Origin: Artocarpus heterophyllus
Taxonomy: Eukaryota; Streptophyta; Magnoliopsida; Rosales; Moraceae
Direction: 5' to 3'
NCBI GenBank assembly: GCA_025403435.1
Contig: CM046340.1
Coordinates: forward strand, 15,630,091-15,694,090
Length of the DNA: 64,000 nt
Part shown: piece by piece, positions 1,867 through 58,912 of the stretch
Numbering within the stretch: position 1 is the first letter of the stretch
Layout: each line of letters opens with the position of its first letter
Notes under the pieces: generated by a model
Told to the model about the DNA's origin: nothing
The model's database searches: none
Seen by the model: the letters and a program-made list of their open reading frames with translations, nothing else
Translations under genes and position numbers: made by a program

Positions 1867-4800
1867 AAAGGTAACTCTTTAGCAGCCCTTAATGTTAAAA
1901 AGGTGGACAAAAAGTTTTTATGGATAGTCGATTCTGGGGCTTCCAATCATATGACTGGTGATGCATCTCTTATCCAAAATCTTAAGCCTTGTTCTGAAAA
2001 CTATAATGTTTGAATAGCTGATGGATCGGTCTCAAAGGTGACTGGCATAGATTCTGTTGCTGTCTCAGAGAACCTAACTCTTAATTCTGTGTTGTTGGTA
2101 CCTAATTTGGATTGCAACCTTTTATCTATAAGGCAACTCACTCAAGAAAAGAACTGTGTTGCTAAATTCTCATCTAAATGTTGCGTTTTTCAGGATTTGA
2201 CTTCGGGACAGATGATTGGCAGTGCTGACTTGCACTCAGGACTCTACATGTTCTTAGCAGCCGAATACTGGGGACAACAATCAATTGAAGAAAGTCGGTC
2301 TTTTTCTGCCTTTAGAAATAATAAAGATAGTGAAGTTATGCTATGGCACTATCGTTTGGGTCATCCAAATCATATGTATCTCAAAAAACTTTCCTTCATT
2401 GTTTAATAAAAACTCTGTGGAATTTCAATGTGAAACTTGTCACTTGTCTAAACATGTTCGAAATTCTTATCCTGTCCAAGAATATAAAGAATCACGTCCT
2501 TTTTCAATAATCCATAGTGATCTTTGGGGACCATACAGAACAAATAATGTTACAGGGGCTCGTTGGTTCGTCACATTCATAGATGATCACTCACGGCTGT
2601 CTTGGGTATTCCTCATGAAAGAAAAATCTGAGGTAGGTCATTTGTTCAAATCCTTCAATAATATGGTTCATACCCAATTCAACACAAAAATCCAAATTCT
2701 TCATACTGATAATGCCAAAGATTATTTCAACTCTATTCTTGGGGAATATTTAACACGAGGGAATTATTCATAAAAGTTCTTGCACTGACACTCCAAAACA
2801 AAACGGAATTGCTGAAAGAAAAAATAGACATTTGTTAGATGTTGCACGCGCAATGATGATTCAATCTCATGTTCCAAAAATTTTTTGGGGTGAAGTTGTT
2901 CTTACTGCAACATATTTAATCAACCGAATGCCCTCCCGTGTCCTTAAATTCCAAACTCCGTGTCAAGTCTTCAAAAATTCTTATCCATCTACACGTCTCA
3001 TTTCATCCATTCCTCTCAAAGTCTTCGGGTGTACATCATTTGTTCATATTCCTCAACAATCGAGAAGTAAACTTGATCCCAAGGCCATAAAATCTATATT
3101 TCTCGGGTATGCACCAAATCAAAAGGGTATAAGTGTTATTCACCTCTCACAAAGAAATTTTATCACTCCATGGATGTGACATTCTTCGAAAATCAACCTT
3201 TTTACTCCAAAAACGATATTCAAGGTGAGAGTGAGATTTTTTGACATTTTTTTTGGGAATTCGAGAGTAACACCCAAGCATCCCAACAATTAGAACCACT
3301 CAAACTTGTCGAGTCAGTTGCAATTCCTCCTATTACCTCTCCGATCACAGAAAACCAGTCCCAAACACAATCCATGCGTGTTCCCGCAACAAACAATGAT
3401 CTCTTGGTGTACTCCAGAAGGAAGAAAAGTCAAGAACATGTAGAGGAACAAATGCAAGAAGGGACTCGTCATGAAGCTGAACCGAAGCCAATCCTAGAAG
3501 AAACACAACCAGGTAACACTGTTTCGGATTCTAATAATATAATTCCACTAGATCTTGATTTGCTGATTGCTCAGAGAAAAGGTGTCAGGACATGTACTCA
3601 TTATCCTATTTACAACTTCATTTCTTACAAGTTGTCTCTAGATTACAGGGCCTTTGCTACTAAACTCACGAAAATTCAAATTCCTAATAGCATTCAAGAA
3701 GCTATGCAGGTTCGTGAATGAAAGCAAACCGTTATAGAAGAACTCAGGGCTCTTGAAAAGAATGATACATGGGAAATAGTCAATCGGCCTCCAGGAAAGA
3801 ATCCAGTGGGATGCAAGTGGATCTTTACTGTCAAACACAATGCAGATGGCAATATAGACAGGTTCAAGGCTCGGTTGGTTGCTAAAGGTTTCACACAAAC
3901 CTATGGTATTGACTACCAGGAGACCTTTGCTCCTGTTGCAAAACTTAACACTATTCGAGTACTTTTGACTCTTGCAATGAACTGTGACTGGAATCTTCAT
4001 CAATTAGATATCAAGAATGCCTTTCTTAATGGAGACTTGGAGGAAGAAGTGTACATGGAAATTCCTACAGGACTCAAAACTCAGGCAAACTCGGACAAGG
4101 TTTGTAAATTGAAGAAATCTCTTTATGGCCTAAAACAATCTCCTAGAGCATGGTTTGATCGGTTTACCAAAGTGGTAAAGAAGTCCGGTTAGTCTCAATG
4201 ACAGTCTGATCATACTTTGTTTGTTAAACATTCTCCTGTTGGAAGGATATCTATCATTATTGTGTACGTGGATGATATAATCCTGACATGAAATCATGAT
4301 GAGGAGATTAAAGAACTCAAGAGGCTTCTAGCTCTTGAATTTGAGGTCAAGGACCTTGGAAACCTAAAATATTTCCTCGGGATGGAAATTGCAAGATCCA
4401 AAACAGGAATTGTGGTCTCTCAACATAAGTATGTCCTTGATTTACTCAAGAAAACCAGGATGCTTGGTTGCAAACCTGCAGACACACCAATGGAAGCAAT
4501 CACCAAAGGCAAAGGAGAAGAAGACAATGTTCCTGTTGACAAAGGAAGGTACCAAAGATTGGTAGGAAGACTTATCTACCTCTCACACACCAGACCCGAC
4601 ATTGGTTTCGCTGTTAGTGTTGCCAGTCAATTCATGAATAATCCCACTGAAGAACATATGGACCGGGCATACCATATTCTGAGGTATTTGAAGAAGACTC
4701 CAGGAGAAGGCCTTCATTTTAAGAAGACTGTGAGAAGGAACATTGAAGTATTCACTGATGCTGATTGGGCTGGTTCTATCACTGACCGAAGATCCACATC

Positions 4801-5221
4801 AGGGTATTGTACTTATGTGTGGGGGAATCTGGTTACGTGGCGAAGTAAAAAGCAAACTGTTGTTGCTCGGAGTAGTGCAGAAGCAGAATTTCGAGCTATG
4901 GCTCACGGGATATGTGAAGGAATGTGGTTAAAACGTCTACTCCTTGAGCTTAAAGTTCCAGTAAACGATCCCATCAACATGATGTGTGACAATCAAGCCG
5001 CTATAAGTATAGCCAAGAATCCTGTTCATCACGATCGAACTAAACATGTAGAGATAGATAGACATTTCATCAAAGAAAAACTCAAAGGTGGCGCAATCAA
5101 TCTCTCCTACATTCCAAGCGCTCAACAAACAGCAAACATTCTTACTAAGGCATTGTCAAAGACAAAGTTCGAAGAGATGAAGTCCAAGCTAGGCTTACTC
5201 AACATTTACAGCCCAGCGTGA
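1867..5221 (+). pseudogene. Copia B pol: protease, integrase, reverse transcriptase, RNase H (broken)
   Basis: Protease core DSGAS is at 1930-1944. GAG-pre-integrase WHYRLGHPNHMYL is near 2344-2382, and the zinc-binding CETC follows. The integrase catalytic acidic residues are visible in HSDLWGP, HTDNAKDYF and NGIAERKNRH. The integrase C-terminal part (KVFGCTSFVHIP, KSIFLGYAP) precedes a linker. The reverse transcriptase has GCKWIFTVKHNADG, LDIKNAFLNGDLEEEVYM and an intact YVDD at 4265-4276. RNase H covers about 4740-5130 (TDADWAGSITDRRSTSGYC, SSAEAEFRAM). Stops or shifts occur at 2011, near 2400, near 2770, near 3180 and 3240, at 3719 and 4190, and near 4290. The final 279 codons, 4382-5221, are uninterrupted. 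Confidence 0.92.
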
Positions 5222-5227
5222 GGGGGG
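5221..5227 (+). other. Polypurine tract of Copia B
   Basis: AGGGGGG immediately precedes the 3' LTR, the place and composition expected for the plus-strand primer of reverse transcription. Confidence 0.8.
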
Positions 5228-5506
5228 TGTAGAAATCCAGGTCATTACAACTAGGATATGCAGAATATTTTGTACAGCTATGATATTTTGTACAGCTATG
5301 CATAATATATTTTGTACAGCCAAGTAGGCTTGTTTTAGGGGATACGTTTATTCACCAAATTCCATAGAGATATACTCTCCTTTAATTAGGATATTTCTTA
5401 TTTATTGCTAAATATTTTTCTCAGCCATGTTGTATTATATATATCTGTTTGTATTCTCAATCAAGAATCAGTGAAAAACAGTATTTCTCATTCAAACAAA
5501 ACTTCT
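5228..5506 (+). repeat. 3' LTR of Copia B
   Basis: It is the same length as the 5' LTR (279 bp), with few differences. It is followed at once by the ATTTC duplication at 5507-5511. Confidence 0.93.
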
Positions 5507-5511
5507 ATTTC

Positions 5512-7113
5512 CCATGTTATTCCATAAAGATGATTCATTTCAGTGTAAAATTTGCCAATTAGCAAAACACAAACGTGTTCCTTTTCCTCCTCAACCTTAT
5601 CGTGCTTCCAAGCCTTTTACGTTAATCCATAGTGATATTTGGGGTCCATCACGTGTCTTAAGTGTTGCCAATAAAAGATGGTTTATTACTTTTACAGGCG
5701 ACCACACTCGTGTTTGTTGGGTTTATTTTTTAAAAGAAAAATCTGAAGCAGAAAGTGTGTTCCAAGGTTTTCACACAATGATCAAAACCCAATATAATGA
5801 AAATATTAAAATACTCCATATCGATAATGGTATAGAATATTTTAATTCCATTCTTGGGAATTTTCCTATAAAATATGGAATTATACATCACAGTTCTTGC
5901 GTAAATACACCACAGCAAAATGGTATTTCTAAAAGAAAAAATCGCCATCTTTTAGAGGTAGCACGTTCTTTGTTGTTCACAACAAATGTCCCTAAGCGTT
6001 TTTGGGGAGATGCTACTTTAACGGCTTGTTACTTGATCAATCGGATGCCATCTCGCGTCTTAAAATTCCAAACTCCTTTCTATTGCCTTTCAAGATCTTA
6101 TCCAGACTTATGTTTCCTTTCAAACTTAGATTTAAAAATATTTGGGTGCACAGCTTTCGTTCACAATCTTGATCCAATTTGTACTAAACTTGATCCTCGT
6201 TCTCATAAGTGTATATTCCTTGGCTATTCATCGACTCAAAAAGGATATCATTGTTACTCTCCGGAAAAGCAAACATATTTTGTCTCTAAGGGGGTCACAT
6301 TTTTTAAATCTCAACCATTTTTTGGTAAATATTCGGTTCAGGGGGAGACCTGTCCTGATTTCCTCTCTGAATCAGGGACCAAATCTCGACCAAACCTTTT
6401 GGGAATATTTTTGGAATTCTTCCCCTGATTCTCTCCCATCTTCTCCTAATTCTCTCCCATCCGTTTCCCTCCAAGATTCAAGAAATCTTCCTCCTGATTT
6501 TCCTAATTCTCCTGATTCTCTCCCATCCGTTTTCCTCCAAGATTCGGGAAATCCTCCATCTGATTTTGTCAATTTGTCATCCCCTACACTTCCGCATTCC
6601 ACCAATCCCACTCCTTTTGATTTTGATAATTCAAAAATTGCCTTTATCCCAACCAAATTGACAAAATCAGATGGAAAAATTGCCTTTATCCCAACCAAAT
6701 CTCACTCGAATCCTAAGGCTAGTTTTCAGGATAATTTAATGACAGGGGGAGACAGATTATGGCAGTTTGACATTACCTACTCACGGAGGCAACGTCCAAC
6801 AAATCAAAAGGGACCTGATATCTCCCATAACCACAGCCAAGAATCCAATCTGGAATCTGGTTTGGAACCGAATATTTCTCAACCAAATGATGATCCAGTG
6901 CAACCACCAGAACCAAAATTTCCTTATAAGCCAAATCCGGGTATCTCCAATAAACCTAATCCTCAATTTACAGATCCAATTGCAATCAAAAAGGAGGTTC
7001 AGTCTTGTACAAAACATCCTTTATCAAATTTTGTCACCTACTCTCATCTATCAAGACCGGTTCAGACTCTTGTGTCTAGTCTTACAAGTGAAGAAATTCC
7101 AAAGAATATATAG
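5512..7113 (+). pseudogene. Copia A integrase and integrase-RT linker (frameshifted)
   Basis: From 5514 a 304-codon reading gives the zinc-binding pair CKIC, then the integrase core with HSDIWGPSRV, HIDNGIEYF and NGISKRKNRH, where the last acidic residue of the triad, normally E in AERKNRH, reads K. Then come the C-terminal blocks KIFGCTAFVHN and KCIFLGYSS. The frame shifts near 6400 and continues to 7113 as a Ser/Pro-rich linker with internal direct repeats (DSLPSV-LQDS-N-P-DF twice near 6430-6560, and KIAFIPTK twice at about 6636-6700). It is not functional. Confidence 0.85.
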
Positions 7114-7821
7114 GAAGCATGGGAGAACCCTAAATGGAGAAAAGCTATCGAAGAAGAGATGGAAGCACTTGAAACAAAATAAAACGTGGGAAATCGTGAA
7201 GAAGCCAAAACAGAAGGTTCCTGTGGGCTGCAAATGGGTTTTCTCCATCAAGTATAGGGAGGACGGTTTAATTGAGAGGTATAAGGCGCGATTAGTGGCA
7301 AAAGGGTACACTCAAACGTATGGAATAGACTATCAAGAAACCTTTGCACCAGTGGCAAAGTTGAATACAATACGAGTGCTACTATCCCTTGCTACAAACC
7401 TAGATTGGCCCCTACAACAACTGGACGTAAAGAATGCTTTCTTAAACGAAGACTTGGAAGAACAGGTCTATATGGAGTTGCCCCCGGGATTCAATAAGAA
7501 AGGAGAAAATGAGATGGTTTGCCGACTGAAGAAATCTTTGTATGGTTTAAAACACTCCAAGAGCCTGGTTTGACCGATTTACTAAGGTAATCCGAAGTCA
7601 CAAGTATAAACAAGCCCAAGCAGATCATCCCCTATTCTCTAAGCACCAAGATGGCAAAGTTACCATCCTCATAGTTTATGTTAATGACATAATATTAACA
7701 GGGGATGACACGGTGGAGATGGAAAACTTAAAAAGAAGACTTCCAACTGAATTGCTCTTATTTGAAAAATTTGTAGACAAGTTGGGCATGTTCAATTTGT
7801 ACAGCCCAACTTCAGGGGAAG
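7114..7821 (+). pseudogene. Copia A reverse transcriptase, truncated; RNase H deleted
   Basis: The reading gives [40 protein letters not shown] and [20 protein letters not shown]. The frame breaks at about 7550 (SLYGLKHS, then [11 protein letters not shown]). The polymerase motif is YVND at 7677-7688 instead of YVDD, so a catalytic Asp is lost. After a segment ending near 7755 the sequence jumps to the extreme polyprotein C-terminus (KLGMFNLYSPT), comparable to KLGLLNIYSPA in Copia B. The rest of RT and all of RNase H are therefore deleted. Confidence 0.85.
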
Positions 7822-38137: not shown

Positions 38138-40671
38138 TGTAACGCCCCTATATGGGGGTTAACAGTTTTTAATGAGATAAAATAAAAATAAATAATAAAA
38201 GTAAAACCTTAAAAATAAAATTTACCCGGGACTTAAATGAAAACTCTCAACTCAAAAATAAAAATATAAACGACAAATAAACCACAGTTTTAAATGTAGC
38301 ACCTTAAATTTAATAATATAAACTGTTGTCATCATCATTTTAACCCTCAACACATTATAATACAGTCACAGAAAGTAACAATTGATGCTTACATTATCAT
38401 GAAGAACATTCTCAACGATTGAAGCAGTCCCAATGTAATATAGTTACATCACTTCCTCAACTATATTTCTCGTAGCCACCTCACACTTAGTGAGTCCTGA
38501 AAAGATATAAACAAAAGGGAATGAGCAACACTATGCTCAGTAGAGAAAGCCATTACTCACCTTTAGGTTTTTATCATTACCACATTAAAATCTGCATGGT
38601 TAGTAGGTTACATCATATTCCAGATTATGAGGTTTATTATGATCACATCTTATGGATACCGTAGTTAATCATTACCAAGTGTCATAATTACACATTTATA
38701 CAAATATTACCAATCATCATTGTTCCTAGGTATCCATGTTAAATAGAGTATCACTCAACTCATCGAAACCCAAATGGGCGCACTTGATCACCCTATAAAC
38801 ATTCCAAGGGTGTTCCGGTGAGGGGACATCAAGCCCCGAGTCCTCACCAAATCGATTCCTGTACAGTGTGTTCTGGGACTTTCAACCCAAGGAAGCGTCA
38901 TCGCCTTCCCCTTATTTTACCTTTTAGGGTATTCATGCCCAAGGACGTAACCGTCGCCCTCTTCATGTCTCACAATTTCTCTATATTGAATCATTATCAA
39001 TAGAGTTAGTTTTCCTAACCATGCTTCTCAATTTATAACATGTGTCAATTCATTATGTTCCTCGCCGTACAATACAAGACGAGTCCATGTCATAATTTCA
39101 TATGTGATAATCATATAATATAAGTTCAACATAGATATATATATATATTGCGGCAAAACAATCAATTTTAATTCTATAAAAACCTCACAAAAGATGAGTA
39201 ATAGAATCCCTACCTTTCAAGCTTATCAGCAGTCTCTTAATCCTGGAATCAATTAACGTTAGCTCCATACTCCCTTGATCTTGAACTCTAAGCAAAACAG
39301 ATCCAGTTGTATCTCGCTGTATCTACGAAGCATCCTCTGTAGTGCTCCTCGAGCGACTACGAATGGCTAGGAATGCTTCCTGGAGATCATACATTCTTGA
39401 AAACGTCATTCTGGACTCCGATACTGCTGTTTGAATCGCCTCGATTCGCGTACAGTCGGTACCGGATGATTTTCATCGGAGTGGAATTTGTTCGAACGGA
39501 GGTCACCATTGCATCCAGAGCATCGAAACGAGTCAGGAGGCGGTCTCGGATCTTCGATCGGAGGTCCGGATCACAAAATCCCATTTTGGCCTTTGACCGG
39601 CCGTTGATCGGCGTTGACCACCGTTGACCGGCCGTTGACCGGTGGCGGTTGGCTCCGTTGAGGGCTGAGCTCGAGCCTACCCCCCCTAATTTGACCCTCC
39701 TGAGTCGATTGGTGGGGTCAATTTCATCCAATTCGGCCTCTAACATAGCAAATCGAAGACGGGTTTCACGGCCAAAACCGGCGGCTCCGATTTCGGTCCT
39801 CCGGCGACGGTAGCCCAAAATTGACTTGGGTGTTTTCTTCCCCGTGACCCTCTGAGCATTTCCCCTATGGTGGGGCAGCTCAACATCACGTGGAACGGCG
39901 GCTCCACCTCCTCACGGCGGCGCTCCACGGTGGATCTTGGTTCTCCGCCTTCTCGTGGTGTTTCCCCAAAATTGAGGTGTTGGAAAGCTTCCTCTCGGTC
40001 CTCTGAAGGTGTTTGTGCCTTCAATTTGGCACAAAACGGCCTAAAATGACCAACCCAACCTCACCCACGGCGACGGTGGCGGGCGTCTTCGTTCTCCGGC
40101 GAGGGGCGGGGGAATGGAGCAATTGACCGAGGGGTCTTGCTCGCCGTCGCCCTCTGATCATTTTGGCACCGGCGGTGTGCCACACCGCTGCCATATGCGG
40201 CGGCTCCGACGGCGGCTCCACGGCGGCGACGGGGCAGCTCCGGCGAAGCTGTTCCAGCCAAAATTGAGCTGGGAAATTGGTACCATCTTGTTCCTCTCCT
40301 CACACTGAGTCCATAGACACCAAAATCACGTCAATTGGTGGTCGGACGGCGGAGAAACGACGTCGGGAAAATATGGGTTTCACCGCCACTTTGGGCGGCG
40401 CGTGAGCCCTCCTCCGGCGGTGTTTTGGGTGGCACGACACCTCGTTGGACTCAGCTCAACGAGAGCTTCCCACTGGTATGGGAGGTGTCGAAAAATAACG
40501 CCGGAATCTCAAACGAGATTTGAGGAGAAAGAGAGAAAATTCTAGAGAGAGAATGAGGAGAGAGAAAGTGTCGAGTTTCTCTCAATTTTCTGATTTTTTT
40601 TATATATATATATATATACTAAAAATTAATCTAATTACCTTAATACCCTTAGGGGAATAACGGGTGTCACA
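38138..40671 (-). mobile_element. Solo LTR related to the LOG-carrying element, reverse orientation
   Basis: It begins TGTAACGCCCCTATATGGGG and ends AACGGGTGTCACA. A perfect duplication GTACA lies at 38133-38137 and 40672-40676. In reverse, its 3' half (39284 down to 38138) is closely similar to 48985-50138, and its first roughly 70 bases match 47777-47845. The middle (about 39285-40600) is unrelated: GC-rich, with several open stretches but no recognisable domain. Confidence 0.85.
39593..39640 (+). promoter_or_regulatory. Cluster of four TTGACC W-box-like motifs
   Basis: TTGACC occurs at 39593, 39614, 39624 and 39635, within the GC-rich middle of the reverse solo LTR. TTGAC(C/T) is the core bound by WRKY transcription factors. 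Function is not shown by the sequence. Confidence 0.35.
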
Positions 40672-45565: not shown

Positions 45566-47776
45566 TCATGACAAAAGCTAAACTTTTGACAAGTTTAAGG
45601 GGTTTTGGGCTGAAGTGGAAAAGTAATTGGGTATACTCATAAAGGCACTTCGATCCGATCGAGGTGGTAAATACCTTTTTGATGAGTTTTCAAGACACTT
45701 ATTAGAGAATAGGATTTTATTCCATTTGACCGAGTGGGGCACTCTGCAGCAGAATGGCGTAGTTGAAAGAAGGAACAGGACTTTGTTGGACATGGTTACG
45801 TCCATGATAAGTTATTCATAATTGCCTTTGTCCTTTTAGGGATATGCATTACAAACGGCATGTTATCTTTTAAACAATGTGCCTTTAAAATTGGTTCCTA
45901 AAACTCATCACGAGTTGTGAACAGGCAAGAAGACATCCTTAAACCATATTCGTATATGGGGATGTCCAACTCATGTCCTGTTTAGGGATACGAATAAGTT
46001 GAAAGCACATTCGGAGGTTTGTGTGTTTGTTTGATACCAAAAGGGACTAAAGGGGGTTATTTTAAAGTTATGGTTTCAAATAATGCAACGTTCCTTGAGG
46101 AAAGTTACATGGACGACTTTAAGCCTCGAAGCAAAGTGGTGCTTGAGGAGTTGGCTGGTGATTCGATCACTCTAGAGGTTCCGAATGAAACCGTTTCGAT
46201 CAGTGTCAAAAAACCAACCGAACCCTAACAACAACCTAAGGGGCTCGTCGTAATGAGAGGATCGGGTGTCAACCCGAGCGATATATGTTCAATGGTAAGG
46301 CCTTCTTGGCTGAACTGAAAGAACATGATAGGGATCCTTACACTTACGAAGAGGCTATGGCGGATGTTGATTTGAAACTTAGGACATAGGCTATGAACAC
46401 AGAGATGAAGTCTATGGAGACTAATTAGGTCTGAGAGCTTGTGGATAAAACCTATAGGGTGTAAGTGGATCTACAAGAGGAAAAAAGGAGTGGATGGAAA
46501 GGTTGAAACCTCTAAGACTAGACCGGTAGCTAGAGGATACACAGAAAAGGAAGGAATCGATTATGAGGAAACCTTTTCGCCTGTAGCCATGCCTGAGTCC
46601 ATCCGGATTCTCTTGTCCATAGCTGCTGCTCTCGATTACGAGATTTAGAAAATGAATGTCAAGACAGCCTTTTTGAATGGCTTTCTTGATGAGTCCATAT
46701 ATATGAAGCAACCAGATAGGTTCAAGGTTAAGGGTCAGAAGGTTAAGGTTTGTAAACTGCTAAAGTCAATTTATGGGATTAAGCAGGCTTCCCGTTCTTG
46801 GAACATATGATTTGATCAAGTGATCAAGACTTATAGGTTTGTACAAAATGTGGAAGAACCATGTGTTCACAAACACATTGAGGATGAGAATGTGGTTTTT
46901 TTACTGCTCTACGTAAATGACATTCTGCTAATTGGCAATGATGTTGGGGCTTTGTCATCTGTCAAATTATGGTTGACCAAGTAGTTTGGCACGAAAGACT
47001 TGGGTGAGGATGATTTTGTTCTTAGTATCTAGATCTTTCGGGATAGGAAGAACATAATGATAGCTTTATCCTAGGTGGGCTACATAAATAAAGTTCTTAG
47101 AAGGTTTGCAATACGGAATTCCAAGAAAGGGGGCAACCATCTAGGTCTGGAATTACTCTTTCTAAGAAAGACTCTCCAAAGTCTGAGGAAGAAAAAGAAT
47201 ACATGAAGAAGGTGCCTTATGCTTCGACAGTGGGTACTCTCATGTATACCATGCTTTGCACGCCATCAGATATTTACTATGCACTTAGGATTATAAGTCG
47301 ATTTCAAGTAGATCCGGGACCGAACCATTGGGTTGCGGTCAAGCATATTTTCAAGTACCTGAGAAGGACGCGACAGTATATGCTTGTATATTTGGGTGAG
47401 GATTTAACTCCTCTAGGATATACTGACTCGGATTTCTAATCCTGCCTAGATTTGAAGAGATCGATTTCGGGTTTTGTGTTTACTGTGGGCGGTAGTGCCA
47501 TCAGTTGGAGAAGTGTGAAGTAAGATTGCACTTTGGATTCAACGATGGAGGCCGAGTATGTGGCAGCTAGTGATGCTTTGAAAGAAGCAGTATGGCTCCG
47601 TAAGTTCCTTGGGGATCTTGAGGTAATTCTTGGTATGGATAAGGTGGTATCGCTGTATTTGGATAATAGTGTGGCGGTAGCTAATGCTAAGCAACTAAGA
47701 TTTCATAAGAATAGTAAACATATTGATTGAAAGTATCATTTGATAAAGGATTTTGAAGAGGGCGGGCATGTTGCTG
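45566..47776 (+). pseudogene. Copia C integrase end, reverse transcriptase and most of RNase H (broken)
   Basis: The integrase resumes after the insertion with IKALRSDRGGKYLFDEF and QQNGVVERRNRTLLDM (catalytic D and E visible), then IWGCPTHVL. RT follows from about 46440: PIGCKWIYKRKKGVDGK and EGIDYEETFSPVAMPESI. The polymerase motif is YVND at 46910-46921 instead of YVDD. RNase H covers 47203-47776 (STMEAEYVAASDALKEAVWL, LYLDNSVAVANA). Stops are frequent. The LOG-carrying element enters at 47777. Confidence 0.88.
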
Positions 47777-50138
47777 TGTGACACCCGTTATTCTCCTAAC
47801 GGGTATTGAGGTAATTAAATTAATTTTTAGTGTATAAAAAAAAAATTGCTTCATTTAAATTTATTTTATAATATTTATTTTTATCTATTTTTAAATTTTC
47901 TAAAATTCTCCTATATTTATTTAGTATGATTACTAAAAAGCCTTAGAACTTCTAAAAAATCTCAAAAATGTCATATTGGCATTATGTGTGTTAAAGTCTT
48001 TAGATGAGACATAAGGATATCTTTTCCAACTACTCTTGACCCTCATTTTCTTTATTTCCTCCGTGACATGCTTCAACATGTCTCCTCTATAATTGTTTCT
48101 ATCACTTCTCTTCAAAGACTTCATTTTTTCTTCCTTTCTCTTCCACGGTTCCCACACTCTTCTTCTCATTTCTTTGCTGAAGCAAAATACTTAGAGAACT
48201 TCTTCAAGGCAGCCATAAAAATCAGCTACCATCACCTCCATTTGAGCAAGAATTTCAGTCATACCGAAGTAAAGGAACCTGTTTTGAAGCCATTTCAAGC
48301 TTCCAACTAACCATAATCCGAGGTTAGAATCTTATGAACAAATTTAGTCTTTCATTTATAAATTTTCTTTTATACTAAAGGATTATTCAAATTTGCGTTC
48401 TTAAACCTAAGTATATGTTTGTTACTATTTTGGAGCATATGTATGAAGTCTAAGTGTATATGCCCTAGACAGAAAATTTATATTGTTAAACTTTGTAATA
48501 CCTCTATGGGCAGTGGTTATTTCTTGAAATTCTAAGATTAAATTAAAATGAATTTTATGAATTGGTTTGCATATTTGAAAAGTAGCATCCTAGGCTTTCT
48601 AACGAGCTATCATAAACCTAAATCGGAGTTGTATTTTATTTTCTAAGAATTATTCAATTTTTGTATTGGAAACTAGTAAATCTGCCAGTTTGTTATGGTA
48701 TACCAGCTGCTAACCTGAACCAAGAACCCATCTTTGCTCACCACCTAATTCTTTAATGTCTTGCAACCTTTCCAATATTATCCTAAGTGATTGATGAATC
48801 TTATTAGGGACTAAAACATATAGATTACTTGTTCACATTTTTTATTGTGTTAAGACAAAAATTGTTTACTGTGGTATTCAAAAGAGATTTATATAAAAGC
48901 TTTAATGGCATACTAGTAAGATAGGTTTACACATGATTTATTTATGAATGTAGTTGTATGTTGTGCTTTAGTTTTAATTGTCCTTATGCACGCCTTAGGA
49001 TCAAGGGAGTATGGAGCTAACGTTAACTGATTCCAGGATTAAAAGATTGTTGATAAGCTTGAAAGGTAGGGATTCTATTACTCATCTTTTGTGAGGTTTT
49101 TATAGAATTAAAATTGATTGTTTTGCCGCAATATATATATATCTATGTTGAACTGATATTATATGATTATCACATATGAAACTATGACATGGACTCGTCT
49201 TGTATTGTACGGCGAGGAACATAATGAATTGACACATGTTATAAATTGAGAAGCATGGTTAGGAAAACTGACTCTATTAATAATGATTTAATATAGAGAA
49301 ATGATGAGACATGAAGAGGGCGGCGATTACGTCCTTGGGCATGAATACCCTAAAAGGTAAAATAGGGGGAAGGTGATGACGCTTCCTTGGGTTGAAAGTC
49401 CCAGAACACACTGTACAGGAATCGATTTGGTGAGGACTCGGGGCTTGATGTCCCCTCACCGGAACACCCTTGGAATGTTTATAGGGTGATCAAGTGCGCC
49501 CATTTGGGTCTCGATGAGTTGAGTGATACTCAATTTAACATGGATACCTAGGAACAATGATGATTGGTAATATTTGTATAAATGTGTAATTATGACACTT
49601 GGTAATGATTAACTACGGTATCCATAAGATGTGATCATAATAAACCTCATAATCTGGAATATGATGTGACTTACTAACCATGCAGGTTTTAATGTGGTAA
49701 TGATAAAAACCTAAAGGTGAGTAATGGCTTTCTCTACTGAGCATAGTGTTGCTCATTCCCTTATGTTTATATCTTTTCAGGACTCACTAAGTGTGAGGTG
49801 GCTACGAGAAATATAGTTGAGGAAGTGATGTAACTATATTACATTGGGACTGCTTCAATCGTTGAGAATGTTCTTCATGATAATGTAAGCATCAATTGTT
49901 ACTTCTGTGACTGTATTATAATGTGTTGAGGGTTAAAATGATGATGACAACAGTTTATATTATTAAATTTAAGGTGCTACATTAAAACTGTGGTTTATTT
50001 GTCGTTTATATTTTTATTTTTGAGTTGAGAGTTTTCATTTAAGTCCCGGGCAAATTTTAATTTTTAAGGTTTTACTTTTATTATTTATTTTTATTTTATC
50101 TCATTAAAAACTGTTAACCCCCATATAGGGGCGTTACA
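47777..50138 (+). repeat. 5' LTR of the LOG-carrying element
   Basis: 2362 bp, nearly identical to 54408-56768. A pyrimidine-rich block near 48100-48170 (TCTCTTCAAAGACTTC, CTTCCTTTCTCTTCC) probably marks the region around the transcription start. Short open stretches inside it (for example 48068-48310) recur in both LTRs and have no recognisable domain. Confidence 0.93.
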
Positions 50139-50145
50139 GAATTTT

Positions 50146-50157
50146 TGGTATCAGAGC
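50146..50157 (+). other. Primer-binding site of the LOG-carrying element
   Basis: TGGTATCAGAGC, an exact match to the common plant initiator tRNA-Met primer site, seven bases after the 5' LTR. Confidence 0.92.
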
Positions 50158-51628
50158 GTAGGTTCGGTTAACCTAGGGAGTGTAGCACCACTTTAAAAAA
50201 ATATATTTTTGAGATGGTTTTGAAGCTGAATTTTCATTGTCATCATCAAAATGAACCTTCACATTGATTTATACAGTCTAGAAGGATGTAACATGGAAAG
50301 GCCATAGAATGAAAATATTAATAGTTATATGAGTACAATAATTATATAGAAGGAAAGTATTAATAGTTATAAGGGAATGATAATTATATGAAATGAGTTT
50401 ATAAGTAGAATGCTTATGAGAGATTCGTATAATATTTGGATCTCTAAGCATATTTAATTCGTATAAACGATGAGAAATTCGTATAGATACGAGGATTTAA
50501 TAGCCTTTTGTCTCGTGAAAAACAATAAGAAATATAAGGCTTGATTTATTGATTTTAAAGTTTGACATAGATATGCCAAATTTTTCGTAATTGATTCAAA
50601 CCTAAGTAATGATTATGTGTGGATTCGATGGAGCACATAAGTGTCAATATCTTTTCTTGAAAGTTCTATTTATTTGAGGAATATGATATAAGTTGGGAAT
50701 CATGGTATTGAATCTTGAGAGAGATAAATGTTAGACTTTTGGTCTGTTGAGACTGTGTAAAGTCTAGAATGCATGAATCTCAAAATTGGAATATTTCGTT
50801 ACGTACATTGTATTTAAGTGTATCAGTGAATCTTTTGGTTACCTAAGGTTTTGTTATATGAGGAAATTATATATTGTATGAGTAGAATTGTGGGGATTAT
50901 AGATGTTCTTAAGTAGTAACATCAAGTGTCTTTGTTCATTGATATGGTCTACGTTGAAAGACGTAAATCGTATTGATTTCAAGGTTAGTCGCATTCTAAA
51001 CCCTTGGTAGTAATGATGATGAATCCATTGATAGATGTTGAGTATTAGGAATAACATATGGGTGTATGCATTGTTCAATAAGGTTTTGATTAAAACAAAA
51101 TTATTTGAGTTGCTGGAAGATTATGTTGTTATGAAATGATTTTAAATATCATTCAGGAAGATCCTTGTTGTCGTTAAATTAGATTTGTTGTTCATAGTTA
51201 ACTTTATCTATAGTGGGCTTTAAATTGGGTTTAAGATTTATACAAATTGGTTTTCAATTTTATGTTTGTTATTTAACTTGTTCTAAATGTGTTAAGGCCC
51301 GAAACAACCTGACCATTTTCAACTAAGAACATTTGGGCCTAGTTTAAATCTTAAATCAGTTTGATTCACACTGTCTCTCCCACGTGGTCTCTATACGTGT
51401 CATATACAGTGGTTTAATTATTGTTTACATATACGTTTACTGTGCGTAAGAGCTTATTTCTCCGAGTTCACTTTTTCTCTCTTAATTTGTTTTTTTTTTC
51501 TCTAAATCGCAAATCCTCTTCTTTTTCATTAGAAATTCTTCTTTTCCTCTAAAAGAAGAAGGAATTCTAGGATTCTGCAATTTACTATCTTAATTTTTCC
51601 TTTCTATTTACTCTTCTTTCATCTCATC
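50158..51628 (+). other. Leader of the LOG-carrying element, with a promoter/UTR-like end
   Basis: There is no credible ORF over 1.47 kb. The last 330 bases change character: a CACGTGG core at 51381, then long CT-rich runs (TTTTTCTCTCTTAATTTG, CTTCTTTTCCTCT) leading to the ORF1 start. This resembles a plant 5' UTR with upstream promoter, which would fit capture of a transcript leader or a private promoter for the cargo. Confidence 0.5.
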
Positions 51629-52150
51629 ATGGACCCAAAGTACCAACACCTGAGAAAGTATTTCCCATCACTCTCCCAAAAGATTCTCAGAAAGAAATAC
51701 AAGGTTAGAATTACTCGGTTGTGGATTCTTATGCGTTTTGGTATCCCTTGTGATGTGAGAATGTTAATAGAGGGAAAAATCCGTCCGAGTGACTTTAGTC
51801 AAGATGTCGGTTTGCCAGGAACAGGTACCAGTCGTAGTGCAATGAAAAGAAGAGCTCGTGCCATCGTGGTCACTTGTAACAAATGTGGAAGACAAAATTG
51901 TAACGGTAAATGTACTTCACCTGGTTATATGTCTACGAATAGAGAGGATAAAATAAGGTTTTGTAGGGATGGACTTTCAAAGGAGAACTTGGATAGCATT
52001 CATCCTCCTCTCCACGGTCACCCTAGTGGATATGTTCAAGGAGCTATTTTTAAACTCTGGCCTAAATTTTATACAGAAAGACAACGCCTCAGGAATATGG
52101 TATTTCTAGATCCTGTTTGTCAAGCCATAAGAAAACTGGATGGGGAATAA
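51629..52150 (+). CDS. Cargo ORF1: 173-aa basic cysteine-rich protein, resembling viral nucleic-acid-binding CRPs
   Basis: The ORF is intact, in strong start context (A at -3, G at +4). In order: a basic N-terminus (residues 1-36), a hydrophobic IPCDVRMLI segment (39-47), a Gly/Ser turn GTGTSRS (64-70), a basic block KRRARA (73-78), then CNKCGRQNCNGKC with Cys at 83, 86, 91 and 95, a likely zinc-binding site without the His of a Gag knuckle. The C-terminal 70 residues (WPKFYTERQRLRNMVF) have no known counterpart. The layout hydrophobic IP.D...I, G.G.S, RRA basic block, CxxC is that of the cysteine-rich nucleic-acid-binding proteins of carla-, viti- and allexiviruses, some of which suppress RNA silencing. 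These are usually shorter (about 90-140 aa). Similarity was judged by eye, so origin and function are inferences. It lies 645 bp before the LOG ORF on the same strand. Confidence 0.7.
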   Translation: MDPKYQHLRKYFPSLSQKILRKKYKVRITRLWILMRFGIPCDVRMLIEGKIRPSDFSQDVGLPGTGTSRSAMKRRARAIVVTCNKCGRQNCNGKCTSPGYMSTNREDKIRFCRDGLSKENLDSIHPPLHGHPSGYVQGAIFKLWPKFYTERQRLRNMVFLDPVCQAIRKLDGE

Positions 52151-52795
52151 GTCATCGCTCTATAAAGGTTATTTAGTCTTTACTTATTTGAAGCAGTTTT
52201 AGCTGATGTTCAACAGTTTGTGTTTTTCTTTTACTCAGAATATTTGCTTTTGTGTTTGAAATAATTGTGATTATTAGATTGATACAGTAAGTGTTAATAT
52301 CTTATTTAATTTATGATTTTCTTAAATATATATATATAATAAAATATATTATCTTATCAGACACGTCACATACGGTACAGTAATATGTTTGAATTTTGAA
52401 AAGCTTATCCAGATATTTCAAGATTTGTGTCTCAAATTTCAAAAGTTCTACAGTATTTGTCGTTTATATTAAATTTCTAGACTTGGTGTATATTTGTCAA
52501 AAAGTCTACAGTTGTGTCAAGAGGGTCTTCTGTCGAATTGTTCTCAATTGTCAAAAGTTATACAATTAGAGTCTAATCTTTTTCAAAAAGTGAATCAGAT
52601 TTTCTGTAAACTATCAATCACCTTATCTTACTTTCTTATCCGCACAAGATTTTGTTTAAATCTTTGGATTACCTTTTCATTTCCTACTCGTCTATCTCTT
52701 TAGCCCTTTTTGTATATTTCTCATCTTTAAAAACTCATGTAGAACCCGAAGTCTAAGTGGAGCAGACATTAAGCAACCACTTCTATAAACCAAAT
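52151..52795 (+). other. Spacer between the two cargo ORFs
   Basis: AT-rich, with no recognisable gene. It includes a TATATATATA stretch near 52328-52339, which could act as a promoter for the second ORF or simply be low-complexity sequence. Confidence 0.45.
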
Positions 52796-53446
52796 ATGTC
52801 TACCTCCCAGTCCACGAAGAAAATAAAGAATGTCTGTGTCTTTTGTGGTTCCAGCCTTGGAAAAGATAAAGCTTATTTAGAAGCTGCAAATCACTTAGGG
52901 CAAGTCCTAGCACGCAAGAAGATTAACTTAATCTATGGGGGTGGTAGTATAAAAATGATGGTAAATATGGCACTAGCAGTTAGGTCTAGCGACGCTACTG
53001 ATGTAAGAATTTGGCCTCATATTCCAGTTGAAGGAAACCTTTGTAAGGAAGCCATAGGTAAGGGAGAAGGAGTCAGGAGTATCCCTAAAAATTTTAAAGA
53101 CATAATCTATAATTCTGATGCTTTTATAGCATTACCTGGTGGTCTAGGTACTCTTGAGGAAATATTTATAGTTGCTTGTGGGCAATTGTTGGGCTTTTAT
53201 TCCAAACCTTTGGGACTACTGAACGTAAAGGGTTTTTATGACGGTCTTTTGAAATTTCTAGATTACGCTGTGGAAGAAAACATCACTACAGAATCGGAGA
53301 GACAAATCTTTGTCACTGCTTCAACAGCTGAGGAATTGATAGATAAAATGCAAATCATACATCCAGAATCCGACACTGCAACATCCAAGCTTGAATGGGA
53401 AAGGGAAAGCCGGGAGCGGCCAATTGATTTGAATCTCCATCTGTAA
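52796..53446 (+). CDS. Cargo ORF2: LONELY GUY (LOG)-like cytokinin riboside 5'-monophosphate phosphoribohydrolase
   Basis: 216 aa from ATG 52796, the usual LOG length, with no intron although plant LOG genes have several. Family blocks in order: VCVFCGSSLGK (13-23), LIYGGGS (45-51), SDAFIALPGGLGTLEEIF (107-124) holding the PGGxGTxxE signature, KPLGLLNVKGFYDGLLKFLD (137-156), and a C-terminal SKLEWE (197-202). LOG enzymes release active cytokinin bases from nucleotide precursors in the cytosol. Differences: the GLMG that normally follows GGGS reads KMMV, and the usual MHxRKAEM helix, which supplies a conserved Arg, reads IPKNFKDII, so classical activity is doubtful. A longer reading from a non-ATG codon at 52757 is unlikely. 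Codons are uninterrupted, in contrast to all neighbouring element genes. Confidence 0.9.
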   Translation: MSTSQSTKKIKNVCVFCGSSLGKDKAYLEAANHLGQVLARKKINLIYGGGSIKMMVNMALAVRSSDATDVRIWPHIPVEGNLCKEAIGKGEGVRSIPKNFKDIIYNSDAFIALPGGLGTLEEIFIVACGQLLGFYSKPLGLLNVKGFYDGLLKFLDYAVEENITTESERQIFVTASTAEELIDKMQIIHPESDTATSKLEWERESRERPIDLNLHL

Positions 53447-54393
53447 TCTTTTTGTTTTATCTTTGGCATGTAGGCATGTGTGTCCGTATTTCGTGTGTTA
53501 CGAATAACCGTTTGCCTTGTATTCTGTGTTTCTTGTGGTACGTCGTTGTTCAATCTTTTAGATTCATTGAGCCTAATGCCGGGATGGCTGGATACGGAGT
53601 ACTTGATGCTCTCGAAACGCATCCTTCTTAAGGTCCGATCTTTTGTTTATCGATGTTTTTGTATCCTCTAAGCATGCATGATATGGATAGCTGGTATACG
53701 GAGTGCCTTGTACTCTCGAAACGTATCCGTATTATGTTTGTAATGTGTAATATTCTGTTAATATTATGTGGAAGTACCAGAGTCAGTTATGGGGATATTC
53801 CATATGAAATATGAGTATATTATTTGGATTGAATGTTTGTGTCATGAGGATAGCTGTTTAATGAAAAATATGCCGGGTATGTTTGCAACTCTGAGATTCC
53901 GTTTAATATCTCTATGAGTAAGTTTAATGTATAGTTTTGAATAAAAGCGTTTGTGATATATGTTTTATGATTATGTTTTAGTTTATTAGTAGAGGTATGA
54001 AATCAAATATGTTTGACTTTTCCTTACTTAAAAAGGAAAAGGAACCTAAAGATGAAATATATAAAATTACTCTGGCAATCTCCTTAAATGTGATTGTAAA
54101 TCACAGTCCATGGACAATGAAGGACTGGAATCATGGTATGGTCAATATGTATGCCTGATCAGATTCTTAGACTATTATACGGTGTTACAAGTTGAAACTT
54201 GTCAGAAATACTCTCATTGAGGGATTTAGAATTTAGAGTAAGATTTATTATGCAAGTAAATAAGTGGAGTTACGATAACTTAAATTTGGAGGACAAAGAA
54301 CATTAACGGTTTAGACTCAGAATTGGAATCATAGTGGAATCATAATTTTTACTAGTATTACTAGAATTGAAATTTCGAGGACGAAATTTCTTT
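53447..54393 (+). other. 3' untranslated part of the LOG-carrying element
   Basis: No ORF of note. It contains the duplicated hairpin motif (53588-53732) and, near the end, GAGGACGAAATTTC just before the purine tract, a sequence typical of plant gypsy-type elements. Confidence 0.6.
53588..53732 (+). repeat. Duplicated hairpin-forming motif downstream of the LOG ORF
   Basis: Two copies of about 38 nt, GCTGG(A/TA)TACGGAGT...CTCTCGAAACG(C/T)ATCC, lie at 53588-53624 and 53691-53728. Each can fold: copy 1 pairs GGATACG (53590-53596) with CGCATCC (53618-53624) and GAGT with GCTC. Copy 2 pairs ATACG (53696-53700) with CGTAT (53722-53726) and GAGT with ACTC. Both leave the unpaired TCGAAA. Confidence 0.6.
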
Positions 54394-54401
54394 AAGGGGG
54401 G
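54394..54401 (+). other. Polypurine tract of the LOG-carrying element
   Basis: AAGGGGGG lies six bases before the 3' LTR. Confidence 0.85.
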
Positions 54402-54407
54402 TAGAGC

Positions 54408-56768
54408 TGTGACACCCGTTATTCTCCTAACGGGTATTGAGGTAATTAAATTAATTTTTAGTGTATAAAAAAAAATTGCTTCATTTAAATTTATTTTATA
54501 ATATTTATTTTTATCTATTTTTAAATTTTCTAAAATTCTCCTATATTTATTTAGTATGATTACTAAAAAGCCTTAGAACTTCTAAAAAATCTCAAAAATG
54601 TCATATTGGCATTATGTGTGTTAAAGTCTTTAGATGAGACATAAGGATATCTTTTCCAACTACTCTTGACCCTCATTTTCTTTATTTCCTCCGTGACATG
54701 CTTCAACATGTCTCCTCTATAATTGTTTCTATCACTTCTCTTCAAAGACTTCATTTTTTCTTCCTTTCTCTTCCACGGTTCCCACACTCTTCTTCTCATT
54801 TCTTTGCTGAAGCAAAATACTTAGAGAACTTCTTCAAGGCAGCCATAAAAATCAGCTACCATCACCTCCATTTGAGCAAGAATTTCAGTCATACCGAAGT
54901 AAAGGAACCTGTTTTGAAGCCATTTCAAGCTTCCAACTAACCATAATCCGAGGTTAGAATCTTATGAACAAATTTAGTCTTTCATTTATAAATTTTCTTT
55001 TATACTAAAGGATTATTCAAATTTGCGTTCTTAAACCTAAGTATATGTTTGTTACTATTTTGGAGCATATGTATGAAGTCTAAGTGTATATGCCCTAGAC
55101 AGAAAATTTATATTGTTAAACTTTGTAATACCTCTATGGGCAGTGGTTATTTCTTGAAATTCTAAGATTAAATTAAAATGAATTTTATGAATTGGTTTGC
55201 ATATTTGAAAAGTAGCATCCTAGGCTTTCTAACGAGCTATCATAAACCTAAATCGGAGTTGTATTTTATTTTCTAAGAATTATTCAATTTTTGTATTGGA
55301 AACTAGTAAATCTGCCAGTTTGTTATGGTATACCAGCTGCTAACCTGAACCAAGAACCCATCTTTGCTCACCACCTAATTCTTTAATGTCTTGCAACCTT
55401 TCCAATATTATCCTAAGTGATTGATGAATCTTATTAGGGACTAAAACATATAGATTACTTGTTCACATTTTATATTGTGTTAAGACAAAAATTGTTTACT
55501 GTGGTATTCAAAAGAGATTTATATAAAAGCTTTAATGGCATACTAGTAAGATAGGTTTACACATGATTTATTTATGAATGTAGTTGTATGTTGTGCTTTA
55601 GTTTTAATTGTCCTTATGCACGCCTTAGGATCAAGGGAGTATGGAGCTAACGTTAACTGATTCCAGGATTAAAAGATTGTTGATAAGCTTGAAAGGTAGG
55701 GATTCTATTACTCATCTTTTGTGAGGTTTTTATAGAATTAAAATTGATTGTTTTGCCGCAATATATATATATCTATGTTGAACTGATATTATATGATTAT
55801 CACATATGAAACTATGACATGGACTCGTCTTGTATTGTACGGCGAGGAACATAATGAATTGACACATGTTATAAATTGAGAAGCATGGTTAGGAAAACTG
55901 ACTCTATTAATAATGATTTAATATAGAGAAATGATGAGACATGAAGAGGGCGGCGATTACGTCCTTGGGCATGAATACCCTAAAAGGTAAAATAGGGGGA
56001 AGGTGATGACGCTTCCTTGGGTTGAAAGTCCCAGAACACACTGTACAGGAATCGATTTGGTGAGGACTCGGGGCTTGATGTCCCCTCACCGGAACACCCT
56101 TGGAATGTTTATAGGGTGATCAAGTGCGCCCATTTGGGTCTCGATGAGTTGAGTGATACTCAATTTAACATGGATACCTAGGAACAATGATGATTGGTAA
56201 TATTTGTATAAATGTGTAATTATGACACTTGGTAATGATTAACTACGGTATCCATAAGATGTGATCATAATAAACCTCATAATCTGGAATATGATGTGAC
56301 TTACTAACCATGCAGGTTTTAATGTGGTAATGATAAAAACCTAAAGGTGAGTAATGGCTTTCTCTACTGAGCATAGTGTTGCTCATTCCCTTATGTTTAT
56401 ATCTTTTCAGGACTCACTAAGTGTGAGGTGGCTACGAGAAATATAGTTGAGGAAGTGATGTAACTATATTACATTGGGACTGCTTCAATCGTTGAGAATG
56501 TTCTTCATGATAATGTAAGCATCAATTGTTACTTCTGTGACTGTATTATAATGTGTTGAGGGTTAAAATGATGATGACAACAGTTTATATTATTAAATTT
56601 AAGGTGCTACATTAAAACTGTGGTTTATTTGTCGTTTATATTTTTATTTTTGAGTTGAGAGTTTTCATTTAAGTCCCGGGCAAATTTTAATTTTTAAGGT
56701 TTTACTTTTATTATTTATTTTTATTTTATCTCATTAAAAACTGTTAACCCCCATATAGGGGCGTTACA
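54408..56768 (+). repeat. 3' LTR of the LOG-carrying element
   Basis: 2361 bp, nearly identical to the 5' LTR. It is followed by the TGCTG duplication at 56769-56773. Confidence 0.93.
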
Positions 56769-56773
56769 TGCTG

Positions 56774-56909
56774 TGTGCAAAATCGTGTCAGAGAACAATT
56801 TAGCTAATCCATTCACGAAGACACTTACTGGAATAGTCTTCGAGAGGCATGTGGAAGCTATGGGGATGCGAGATTTGTCATATTTACTCGCTTCGTGCAA
56901 GTAAGAGAT
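56774..56909 (+). pseudogene. C-terminal end of Copia C RNase H
   Basis: It continues the RNase H reading interrupted at 47776: CKIVSENNLANPFTKTL, then FERHVEAMGMRDLSYLLASC and a stop. The purine-rich GCAAGTAAGAGAT before the 3' LTR is the probable polypurine tract. Confidence 0.85.
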
Positions 56910-58912
56910 TGTTAGACATGTATGCCTTAAGAAGTAAAAATGTAATATATTTTTGAAGACATTTTTATTAATAAAGAATTTATTTATCATTTATATACCA
57001 AATCTTGTCTTCTTTACGTTCATATTTATTGACTGTATGATAAGCAAATAAAAGTGTGAGATTGTCTGTCTAAACCTTTTTAAGAATCAGGCATATGATG
57101 GACATATTATGCGAAAGACATGATTCTGAAGGTGATGGTCTAAATCATAAGATCTGCAATCGATAGAATAAAGTCAGACGCTTTATTTATGCAAAGATTG
57201 TTATATTGTCTATAGCCTTAATGGGAGATGGTTTGTCTTGGCCATCGAAGGTGGACTCCACGAATAGAAACATTGGTGCATTGGCATAGGTGACGATGCA
57301 TTAGATCGGGACATAAAGTGAAGTAATTTAGATAAATAATTCTATCTTAGCAAATCGATTCACTTTAGACAATCATATATGTTGTGTCTTAATCCTGAGA
57401 TGAATAGTGGGCCCGTTGTCTTGACTTATGCTTTTGATGTACCAAAATGTGACATTTACATTTTATGTTGGTACATATGCCGATATGTTGGAGGCTGACT
57501 CTTGATAACGTAGACTTGTTATTCATAGATACGGAATCCATAGCTCCTCTTTAGGAGTTGTTGATATCCTCTTATATGCGTTATCTTGTAATTGAAAAAC
57601 TGGAGCGCTCAACCATTTGGATACATAGGTGTAACCGAATCGTATACTATCTTTGGATGGCAAGTTTTCCAATAGTGAAATAATAGAATGTAAGAAAAAA
57701 ATAATCGGTAAGGTAAGATAGAATTTATCTTTAAGCCGATTGTGGATAATCCTATGGGGATACAATACATCATGATATGTCATGGAGACTTAGCTATTCG
57801 GGCTTCGTAATTCTATACAGTTTGAGAGTGCAGCTCTAAGCTTTTAGTGGAGTAGCATTGGAGCTGATAATTATGAAATGTATATCTGAGATATTGGGTT
57901 TCATAATTATTGAGAGCTTAAACTATATAGGTCTATATGGTCCCCTTTGCTAGCTCACAAAAATCCTATAACGATATGACAAGCTTTTCCAATAAATTGG
58001 TGACTTATGTCATATTATTATATTGGTTAAAAATTGAGTTAATTGGATTTAATAATTCATGTTAATTTATCGGTTGAATTAATTCTGTAATTAATTTAAG
58101 ATAAACATTTTGGTTTATCGGTTGAATTAATTTGGTGAATTAATTCAAGAAAAATATGTTGAATTATCGTGGATAATATCTTATTTGTATGAGTTTATCA
58201 AGATATGATTATTTTAATCAGATAACTTCTCTATTAGGTCATTTGAATTAAAATTGAGACTCTATTAAAGATACCCAGAACTAATAAGATAGGAATTATC
58301 CAATAGGTTGAGATAGCATCTATCGGATCAACCTTAGATTTGAATCAAATTCAAATCGGGTATCTTCGATGGCATAGTCAACCACGCCTTTGTATCGCGG
58401 TCAACTGTGGCTATCAGACTTCGAGTCTAATTACGTGGATTCAAATTTGAAACTAATTTAAACTTAAATTTTGAGGCCTTATCTAATAATGATTGGCCCT
58501 AAGTTTGACCTTTATAAATAGGGAATGAGTTCTCTTTGTTATTTAGATTAGTTGAGAAATCTAGAGTGAGTACTCTGCTAGTGAGACTCTAAAGCTCCTT
58601 GGAGAGCTGTTGTTCACAAATCACGAATTATAGCTTTGAGTATTTCTCAATTGGTTGGAAGGAGAGTCACCTGTGGAAGAGCTGTACGAGTGTGCCCACA
58701 TACACACCGGTCGTGAATAGAAAATAACAAAGAAGGCCAGTTGGTTGAGGTCCTTCTTCAACGTCCTTTCTCTTCATCGATTGCAGGAGTTTTTCGGCAA
58801 ACAAGTTTAGTAAGATCTGATTAATTTATGCATATAGCATATCAAACTTATGTTTAAGAAAATACTCTGGTATAAAATTTTTAAAATTTCACTGCGTACT
58901 ATTATTCTAACA
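56910..58912 (+). repeat. 3' LTR of Copia C
   Basis: TGTTAGACATGTATGCC to TATTCTAACA. It is collinear with 30762-32751, with many substitutions, so Copia C is much older than the LOG-carrying element. Confidence 0.9.

Follow-up and report, generated by a model that had tools for sequence, protein, structure and literature searches.

The DNA analysed here is a 64,000-nucleotide stretch of Artocarpus heterophyllus (assembly GCA_025403435.1, contig CM046340.1, positions 15,630,091 to 15,694,090 of the forward strand), hereafter the window, on contig C14 of the 985-Mb genome. Positions 47,777 to 56,768 of the window hold a long terminal repeat (LTR) retrotransposon that carries two open reading frames (ORFs), one for a putative relative of the NABP proteins of plant viruses (ORF1) and one derived from the cytokinin-activating enzyme LOG (ORF2). 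We designate the family of this element family A, and further NABP-LOG loci of the same genome families B and C. The anatomy of the element and the pairing of the two genes are near certain; its features are as follows.

47777..50138, plus strand: 5' LTR of 2362 bp, TG...CA, with the target site duplication (TSD) TGCTG directly outside
50145..50157, plus strand: primer binding site, TGGTATCAGAGC, after the 5' LTR
51629..52150, plus strand: ORF1, 173 aa, NABP-like, apparent Carla_C4/Viral_NABP relative
52796..53446, plus strand: ORF2, 216 aa, LOG-derived, a single open frame
54394..54407, plus strand: G-rich polypurine tract, AAGGGGGGTAGAGC, containing AAGGGGGG, before the 3' LTR
54408..56768, plus strand: 3' LTR of 2361 bp, with the TSD TGCTG directly outside

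A preliminary description of this DNA had reported an LTR element with an uninterrupted 216-codon LOG-like frame and no gag-pol, and both points hold. Paired LTRs, TSD, primer site and polypurine tract are all present. The two LTRs differ by one substitution and one 1-base indel, and a single substitution in approximately 2361 sites indicates that the element inserted recently, approximately 16,000 years ago at a rate that we take to be 1.3e-8 per site per year. Nine other frames of 60 aa or more were without a Pfam match at E<=1; no trace of gag-pol was thus detected, and the element lacks the gag and pol of an autonomous LTR element. When the internal region was shuffled 500 times, the longest ATG-initiated ORF reached 131 aa, and a chance origin of ORF1 and ORF2 is rejected. 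An Rfam scan of positions 47,000 to 57,500 returned nothing at the gathering score. The primer site is, we assume, of the tRNA-Met type, and the LTR ends, primer site and polypurine tract of this element without pol presumably resemble those of Tekay-type chromoviruses.

The identity of ORF2 is supported by a Pfam match to PF03641 (1e-21), by a sequence match to the Arabidopsis LOG-type protein 2a33 (3e-44), and by its structural model, whose best fold match is again 2a33 (E 1.8e-16). The model has a pLDDT of 76 and a pTM of 0.74, with low confidence before residue 98 and in the tail. The LOG fold, the PGGLGTLEE motif and the catalytic Glu are all retained, and Asn99 stands in place of the catalytic Arg. 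Among 120 listed LOG hits, 109 could be mapped at these columns: the Arg column holds Arg in 101, Lys in 4, and Asn, Ser, Pro and Gln in 1 each, and the Glu column holds Glu in 107. The available text of one study reports the catalytic Arg as conserved across all LOG subgroups (PMC5379747). Given that Asn99 is present in the window element and in 30/30 family A copies (window included), the family A LOG protein is probably not a working phosphoribohydrolase, and the idea in the preliminary description that the element spreads hormone activation loses its footing. The C-terminus of ORF2 forms an LxLxL tail, which also ends 86 of the 120 listed LOG hits and none of six canonical plant LOG hits, and which we take to be EAR-like.

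The protein encoded by ORF1, passed over in the preliminary description, is basic (34 K+R, 14 D+E) and Cys-rich, with the pattern CX2CX4CX3C. An initial search found 15 relatives; a profile search returned 857 proteins at E<=1, and the named sources among the best 120 of these 857 are Xanthoceras, Populus, Acer, Hibiscus, Orobanche and Rhamnella. Of 16 aligned family members, 15 match Carla_C4 and 14 match Viral_NABP (E<=1). When eight relatives were scanned, six passed the Viral_NABP cut-off, six the Carla_C4 cut-off, and seven at least one of the two. The Cys pattern is matched by 91 of 125 NABP relatives and not by the other 34, and the structural model is middling (pLDDT 75, pTM 0.41). Judging from these profile matches, the 173-aa ORF appears to belong with the Carla_C4/Viral_NABP proteins of plants, a family related to the silencing suppressors of carlaviruses, and this putative NABP relative travels with LOG. 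According to the accessible part of one source, viral proteins of NABP type suppress RNA silencing, and the p12 protein of Chrysanthemum virus B is reported as a transcription factor that induces hyperplasia (PMC12172455). Against IMG/VR viral contigs, the NABP alignment gave 54 pattern matches and the LOG alignment 14, none of them a relative.

The element is one of many. A DNA search with both ORFs gave 2338 first-look candidates in the genome, and 40/40 of those scored, window included, match at 99-100%; a genome search with PF03641 gave 4846 first-look candidates, of which 150/150 scored match, nearly all with the full domain in one frame and 124, by hand count, free of stops. Candidates were scored best-first, and the first-look numbers are not numbers of confirmed copies. 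Within the 30 fetched family A copies, the NABP frame is open in 27 and LOG is open to residue 216 in all 30, with its stop seen in 29. The LTR begins after the purine tract in 30/30, the exact AAGGGGGG is present in 27, and the primer-site core TATCAGAG is found within the fetched flank in 25. A single local insertion is ruled out by these many near-identical copies, all 30 with an adjoining 3' LTR. Outer element ends were checked in six copies. L015 has both at the expected place, with flanks (GTTCC / GTTTC) alike at 4 of 5 bases; L017 has a matched 3' end (113 of 120 bases) plus bases 25-69 of the LTR start; and the other four have neither end within 301-base windows.

The NABP-LOG pair extends beyond family A. 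For 12 of the 150 LOG hits, picked among high scorers, the surrounding 10 kb was examined, and NABP lies upstream of LOG in the same orientation in 12/12. Two short loci, L001 and L006, add NABP matches (in pieces in L001), bringing the pairing to 14/14 other LOG loci. Eleven of the 12 loci align mutually over kilobases at 87-97% likeness, with one 476-base stretch at 75%, and constitute family B; L041 is separate and represents family C. The catalytic Arg is retained in both families. LOG frames of at least 200 aa occur in 12/12 loci, a figure favoured by choosing on LOG score, and NABP is full length in 3/11 family B loci (L040, L043, L045). Retrotrans_gag was identified in 3/3 gag frames scanned in family B, and an aspartyl protease in 4/4 protease frames. 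One family B element could be bounded (L047 with L063), with LTRs 94.4% identical, the TSD GCAAC, the primer binding site TGGCGCCGTTGCCGGGGA, and the order gag, protease, NABP (broken), LOG, purine tract; it reads as sitting inside family A sequence. In this copy, neither the interval from protease to NABP nor that from LOG to the 3' LTR contains a frame longer than 100 aa (shorter frames being outside the Pfam scan), which indicates that reverse transcriptase and integrase are missing from it. Its primer site, seen in the one family B copy whose 5' end was fetched and which offers no reverse transcriptase frame to classify, is presumably of Athila/Tat type. The pair is common to element families with different primer sites, presumably tRNA-Met-type in family A and Athila-type in family B. 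Window positions 53,560 to 53,745, 3' of LOG, hold a pair of imperfect repeats, each about 45 bases long and bearing short inverted arms (GGATACGGAGTA ... CTCTCGAAACG[C/T]ATCC), and similar repeats follow LOG in L041; RNA folding of the window repeats barely beats shuffled sequence (z -1.53). In the search lists, a LOG entry (P0052) and an NABP entry (P0149) both give a longest contig of 8723 bases, likely though not provably one and the same, which suggests that the pair also occurs together in another plant.

As a basic, Cys-rich protein in an element without gag, NABP might serve as a packaging factor or RNA chaperone, a nucleocapsid stand-in that marks the element's RNA for helper particles, and not as a suppressor; an element packaged by a helper would benefit from such a protein. 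NABP is, however, also present in family B, which has a gag of its own, and its closest named relatives are suppressors of viral origin rather than nucleocapsids; we consider this role unlikely.

The gene trees (LOG, 32 rows; NABP, 30 rows) are congruent. In both, the window groups with L041 (100/95 and 99/85) and family B branches next; a further protein, P0122, stands beside family B in the NABP tree. The LOGs of this genome cluster together, separate from canonical LOGs (100/100). A 51-row tree without families B and C places the window on a long branch (1.26), its placement unsure. The preliminary description had envisaged that a spliced LOG transcript was captured by reverse transcription. 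A recent capture by the window element is not supported, since a LOG lineage common to the Athila-primed family and other plants indicates an old acquisition.

Both ORFs are under purifying selection across transposition. Between the window and L041, dN/dS by the NG86 method is 0.168/1.075 (about 0.16) for NABP and 0.228/0.906 (about 0.25) for LOG, and inside family B the NABP values are 0.028/0.109 and 0.031/0.080. Among the 30 family A copies, chosen by likeness to the window, pN/pS is 0.36 for NABP (p 0.0016) and 0.50 for LOG (p 0.045) with a fixed transition bias, and 0.33 (p 0.0005) and 0.47 (p 0.03) with a spectrum derived from flanks that take in the variable U3. Shared variants are mostly synonymous (12 against 9 nonsynonymous in NABP, 6 against 2 in LOG), and singletons are not (7 against 11 and 7 against 16). 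In 2000 neutral runs with substitution only, ORF2 stayed open in 0/2000 at 47% identity and in 0.4% at 70%, and ORF1 in 0.25% at 60% and 3.35% at 78%. Further copies and a dN/dS below 1 were thus both found, in keeping with the preliminary description.

These results weigh on the view that ORF1 and ORF2 are functionless pieces of captured genes, carried passively on a successful non-autonomous element. Plant LTR elements often capture genes, according to the consulted part of PMC7264820; the best-matching copies are nearly identical, so that recent amplification alone would keep their frames open; and in family B the dN/dS of LOG is 0.041/0.068 and 0.050/0.076 (0.6-0.7) and NABP is broken or cut short in 8/11 loci, indicating weak constraint there. 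Passive carriage is nonetheless the least probable of the alternatives we considered, being at odds with the low dN/dS between families A and C, the synonymous excess among shared variants, the absence of any open frame among the neutral runs at 47% identity, and the occurrence of the same pair, with congruent trees, behind different primer sites. A second alternative, that LOG has remained an active enzyme, releasing cytokinin, and that the element works through it by hormone activation, draws on the retained fold, PGGLGTLEE motif and catalytic Glu, and on the Arg kept in families B and C, where the enzyme may act. With family B as outgroup, simple arithmetic gives a LOG branch dN/dS of about 0.36 for the window as against 0.16 for L041, the window branch being the faster in dN; together with Asn, in the 30/30 family A copies, at a position reported as conserved across LOG subgroups, this makes an active enzyme improbable, only slightly less so than passive carriage.

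Family A also varies in its LTRs, as illustrated by a second feature of the window:

38138..40671, minus strand: solo LTR of family A with a different 5' (U3) part, TSD TGTAC

The last 1.14 kb of this solo LTR is 97.6% identical to the window LTR and the first 60 bases 92%; the remainder differs. The window U3 (LTR bases 61-700) is matched by 26/30 copies. The other four copies divide into two that match the solo-LTR version (L017 and L037) and two without a match to either version (L027 and L029), and one copy, L014, corresponds to both; LTR length therefore varies. Taken together, the family A LTRs (the solo LTR and L009-L038) combine a conserved remainder with at least three distinct U3 parts, as if promoters had been swapped. 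Elsewhere in the window, the flanks of the element, joined across it, read as a Ty1/copia RNase H relic, and frames at positions 1115-7573 are readable, from their translation, as pieces of a Ty1/copia polyprotein.

Several known systems resemble these families in part. Non-autonomous plant LTR elements without pol include the LARD and TR-GAG types, which share with the families described here LTRs, primer site and polypurine tract without reverse transcriptase (family B keeps gag, as TR-GAG does); the families described here differ in carrying two accessory ORFs under selection. The Cys-rich proteins of carlaviruses, allexiviruses and mandariviruses (Carla_C4, PF01623; Viral_NABP, PF05515) likewise have a Cys cluster after a KRRA-type basic stretch, whereas the NABPs described here are 173-184 aa long, with extra N- and C-terminal parts and CX2CX4CX3C, and are encoded by retrotransposons. 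Plant LOG (2a33, At2g37210; cytokinin riboside 5'-monophosphate phosphoribohydrolase) shares its fold and PGGxGTxxE motif with the window ORF2, which departs from it in the Asn for catalytic Arg, the LxLxL C-terminus and its single open frame in a transposon. Steinbauerova is said in 2011 to have called LOG-carrying elements Athila-like. That a YgdH/LOG domain occurs in Ty3/gypsy LTR elements of Citrus and Populus is already reported (Steinbauerova 2011, as cited in the available text of PMC9289625), contrary to the claim of the preliminary description that no such element had been described. Those elements share with ours a LOG-derived ORF in an LTR retrotransposon; the primer site of family B is presumably of Athila type. 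The window family differs from them in its tRNA-Met-type primer site, absence of gag-pol and lost catalytic Arg, and in its linked NABP, of which the account of YgdH elements in the part of PMC9289625 consulted makes no mention. In orchids, Ty3/gypsy elements also keep an accessory gene, for an RNA demethylase of AlkB type, which is proposed to act against RNA control by the host; the gene is a different one, and the elements, in the text available, are large and were found by their reverse transcriptase (PMC9289625). Among literature retrieved for LONELY GUY and retrotransposon, only PMC9289625 concerns extra ORFs in retrotransposons, judged by title and abstract, and neither the NABP-LOG pair nor a retrotransposon with a carlavirus-type NABP was found described in the literature searched, whose coverage leaves out most subscription journals. 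As far as these searches reach, a conserved pair of virus-like and LOG genes common to differently primed element families is new.

Selection on both ORFs, and a pair kept together while the backbone differs, are most simply accounted for by a cassette useful to the element. We propose that family A is a non-autonomous LTR retrotransposon with a two-gene accessory cassette, which the Gag-Pol of another element would move. The NABP-like zinc-finger protein would bind nucleic acid and, by analogy with its viral relatives, might blunt RNA silencing or alter nuclear transcription. LOG may at first have raised active cytokinin locally; the family A protein, its catalytic Arg lost, might now act without catalysis, via LOG dimers and/or an EAR-like LxLxL tail working by TOPLESS-type co-repression. 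What the element would gain is higher expression in cells that divide. The cassette may have moved between lineages, or LTRs may have been exchanged around it.

A number of observations count against this account, in addition to the weak constraint and broken NABP frames of family B. ORF1 of the window alone falls below the Pfam cut-offs of both Carla_C4 and Viral_NABP (13 of 20.9 and 16.4 of 23 bits). A viral fold library gave nine matches to its model, none at E<=0.001; the top match, the silencing suppressor of Helleborus mosaic virus, has an E of 5.7 and is not evidence. The LxLxL tail sits in a low-confidence part of the ORF2 model. The family A copies were chosen by similarity to the window and the pair loci by LOG score. 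Mobilisation in trans, as the preliminary description had it, fits the anatomy, and no helper element for family A was found. On balance, we judge the whole account, proposed roles included, to stand about evenly between right and wrong; the molecular roles given to the two proteins are a best guess, short of even chances. Somewhat more tentative still is a joint reading in which plant LTR elements share a mobile cassette of carlavirus-type suppressor and EAR-tailed LOG, passed between Athila-primed and tRNA-Met-primed lineages, in which the carlavirus-type suppressors share their origin with the retrotransposon gene, and in which the LOG of one lineage has turned into a non-catalytic recruiter of repressors.

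Described here are many-copy mobile elements in which a hormone-pathway gene and an apparent member of a silencing-suppressor family of plant viruses occur together, under selection. Annotators should be warned that 'LOG' entries with a single frame, such as the Populus hits named LOGL10, may in some cases be transposon genes. The finding bears on the origin of the carlavirus cysteine-rich proteins, and it opens to test the idea that retrotransposons use dedicated genes to counteract silencing by the host and to steer the proliferation of its cells.

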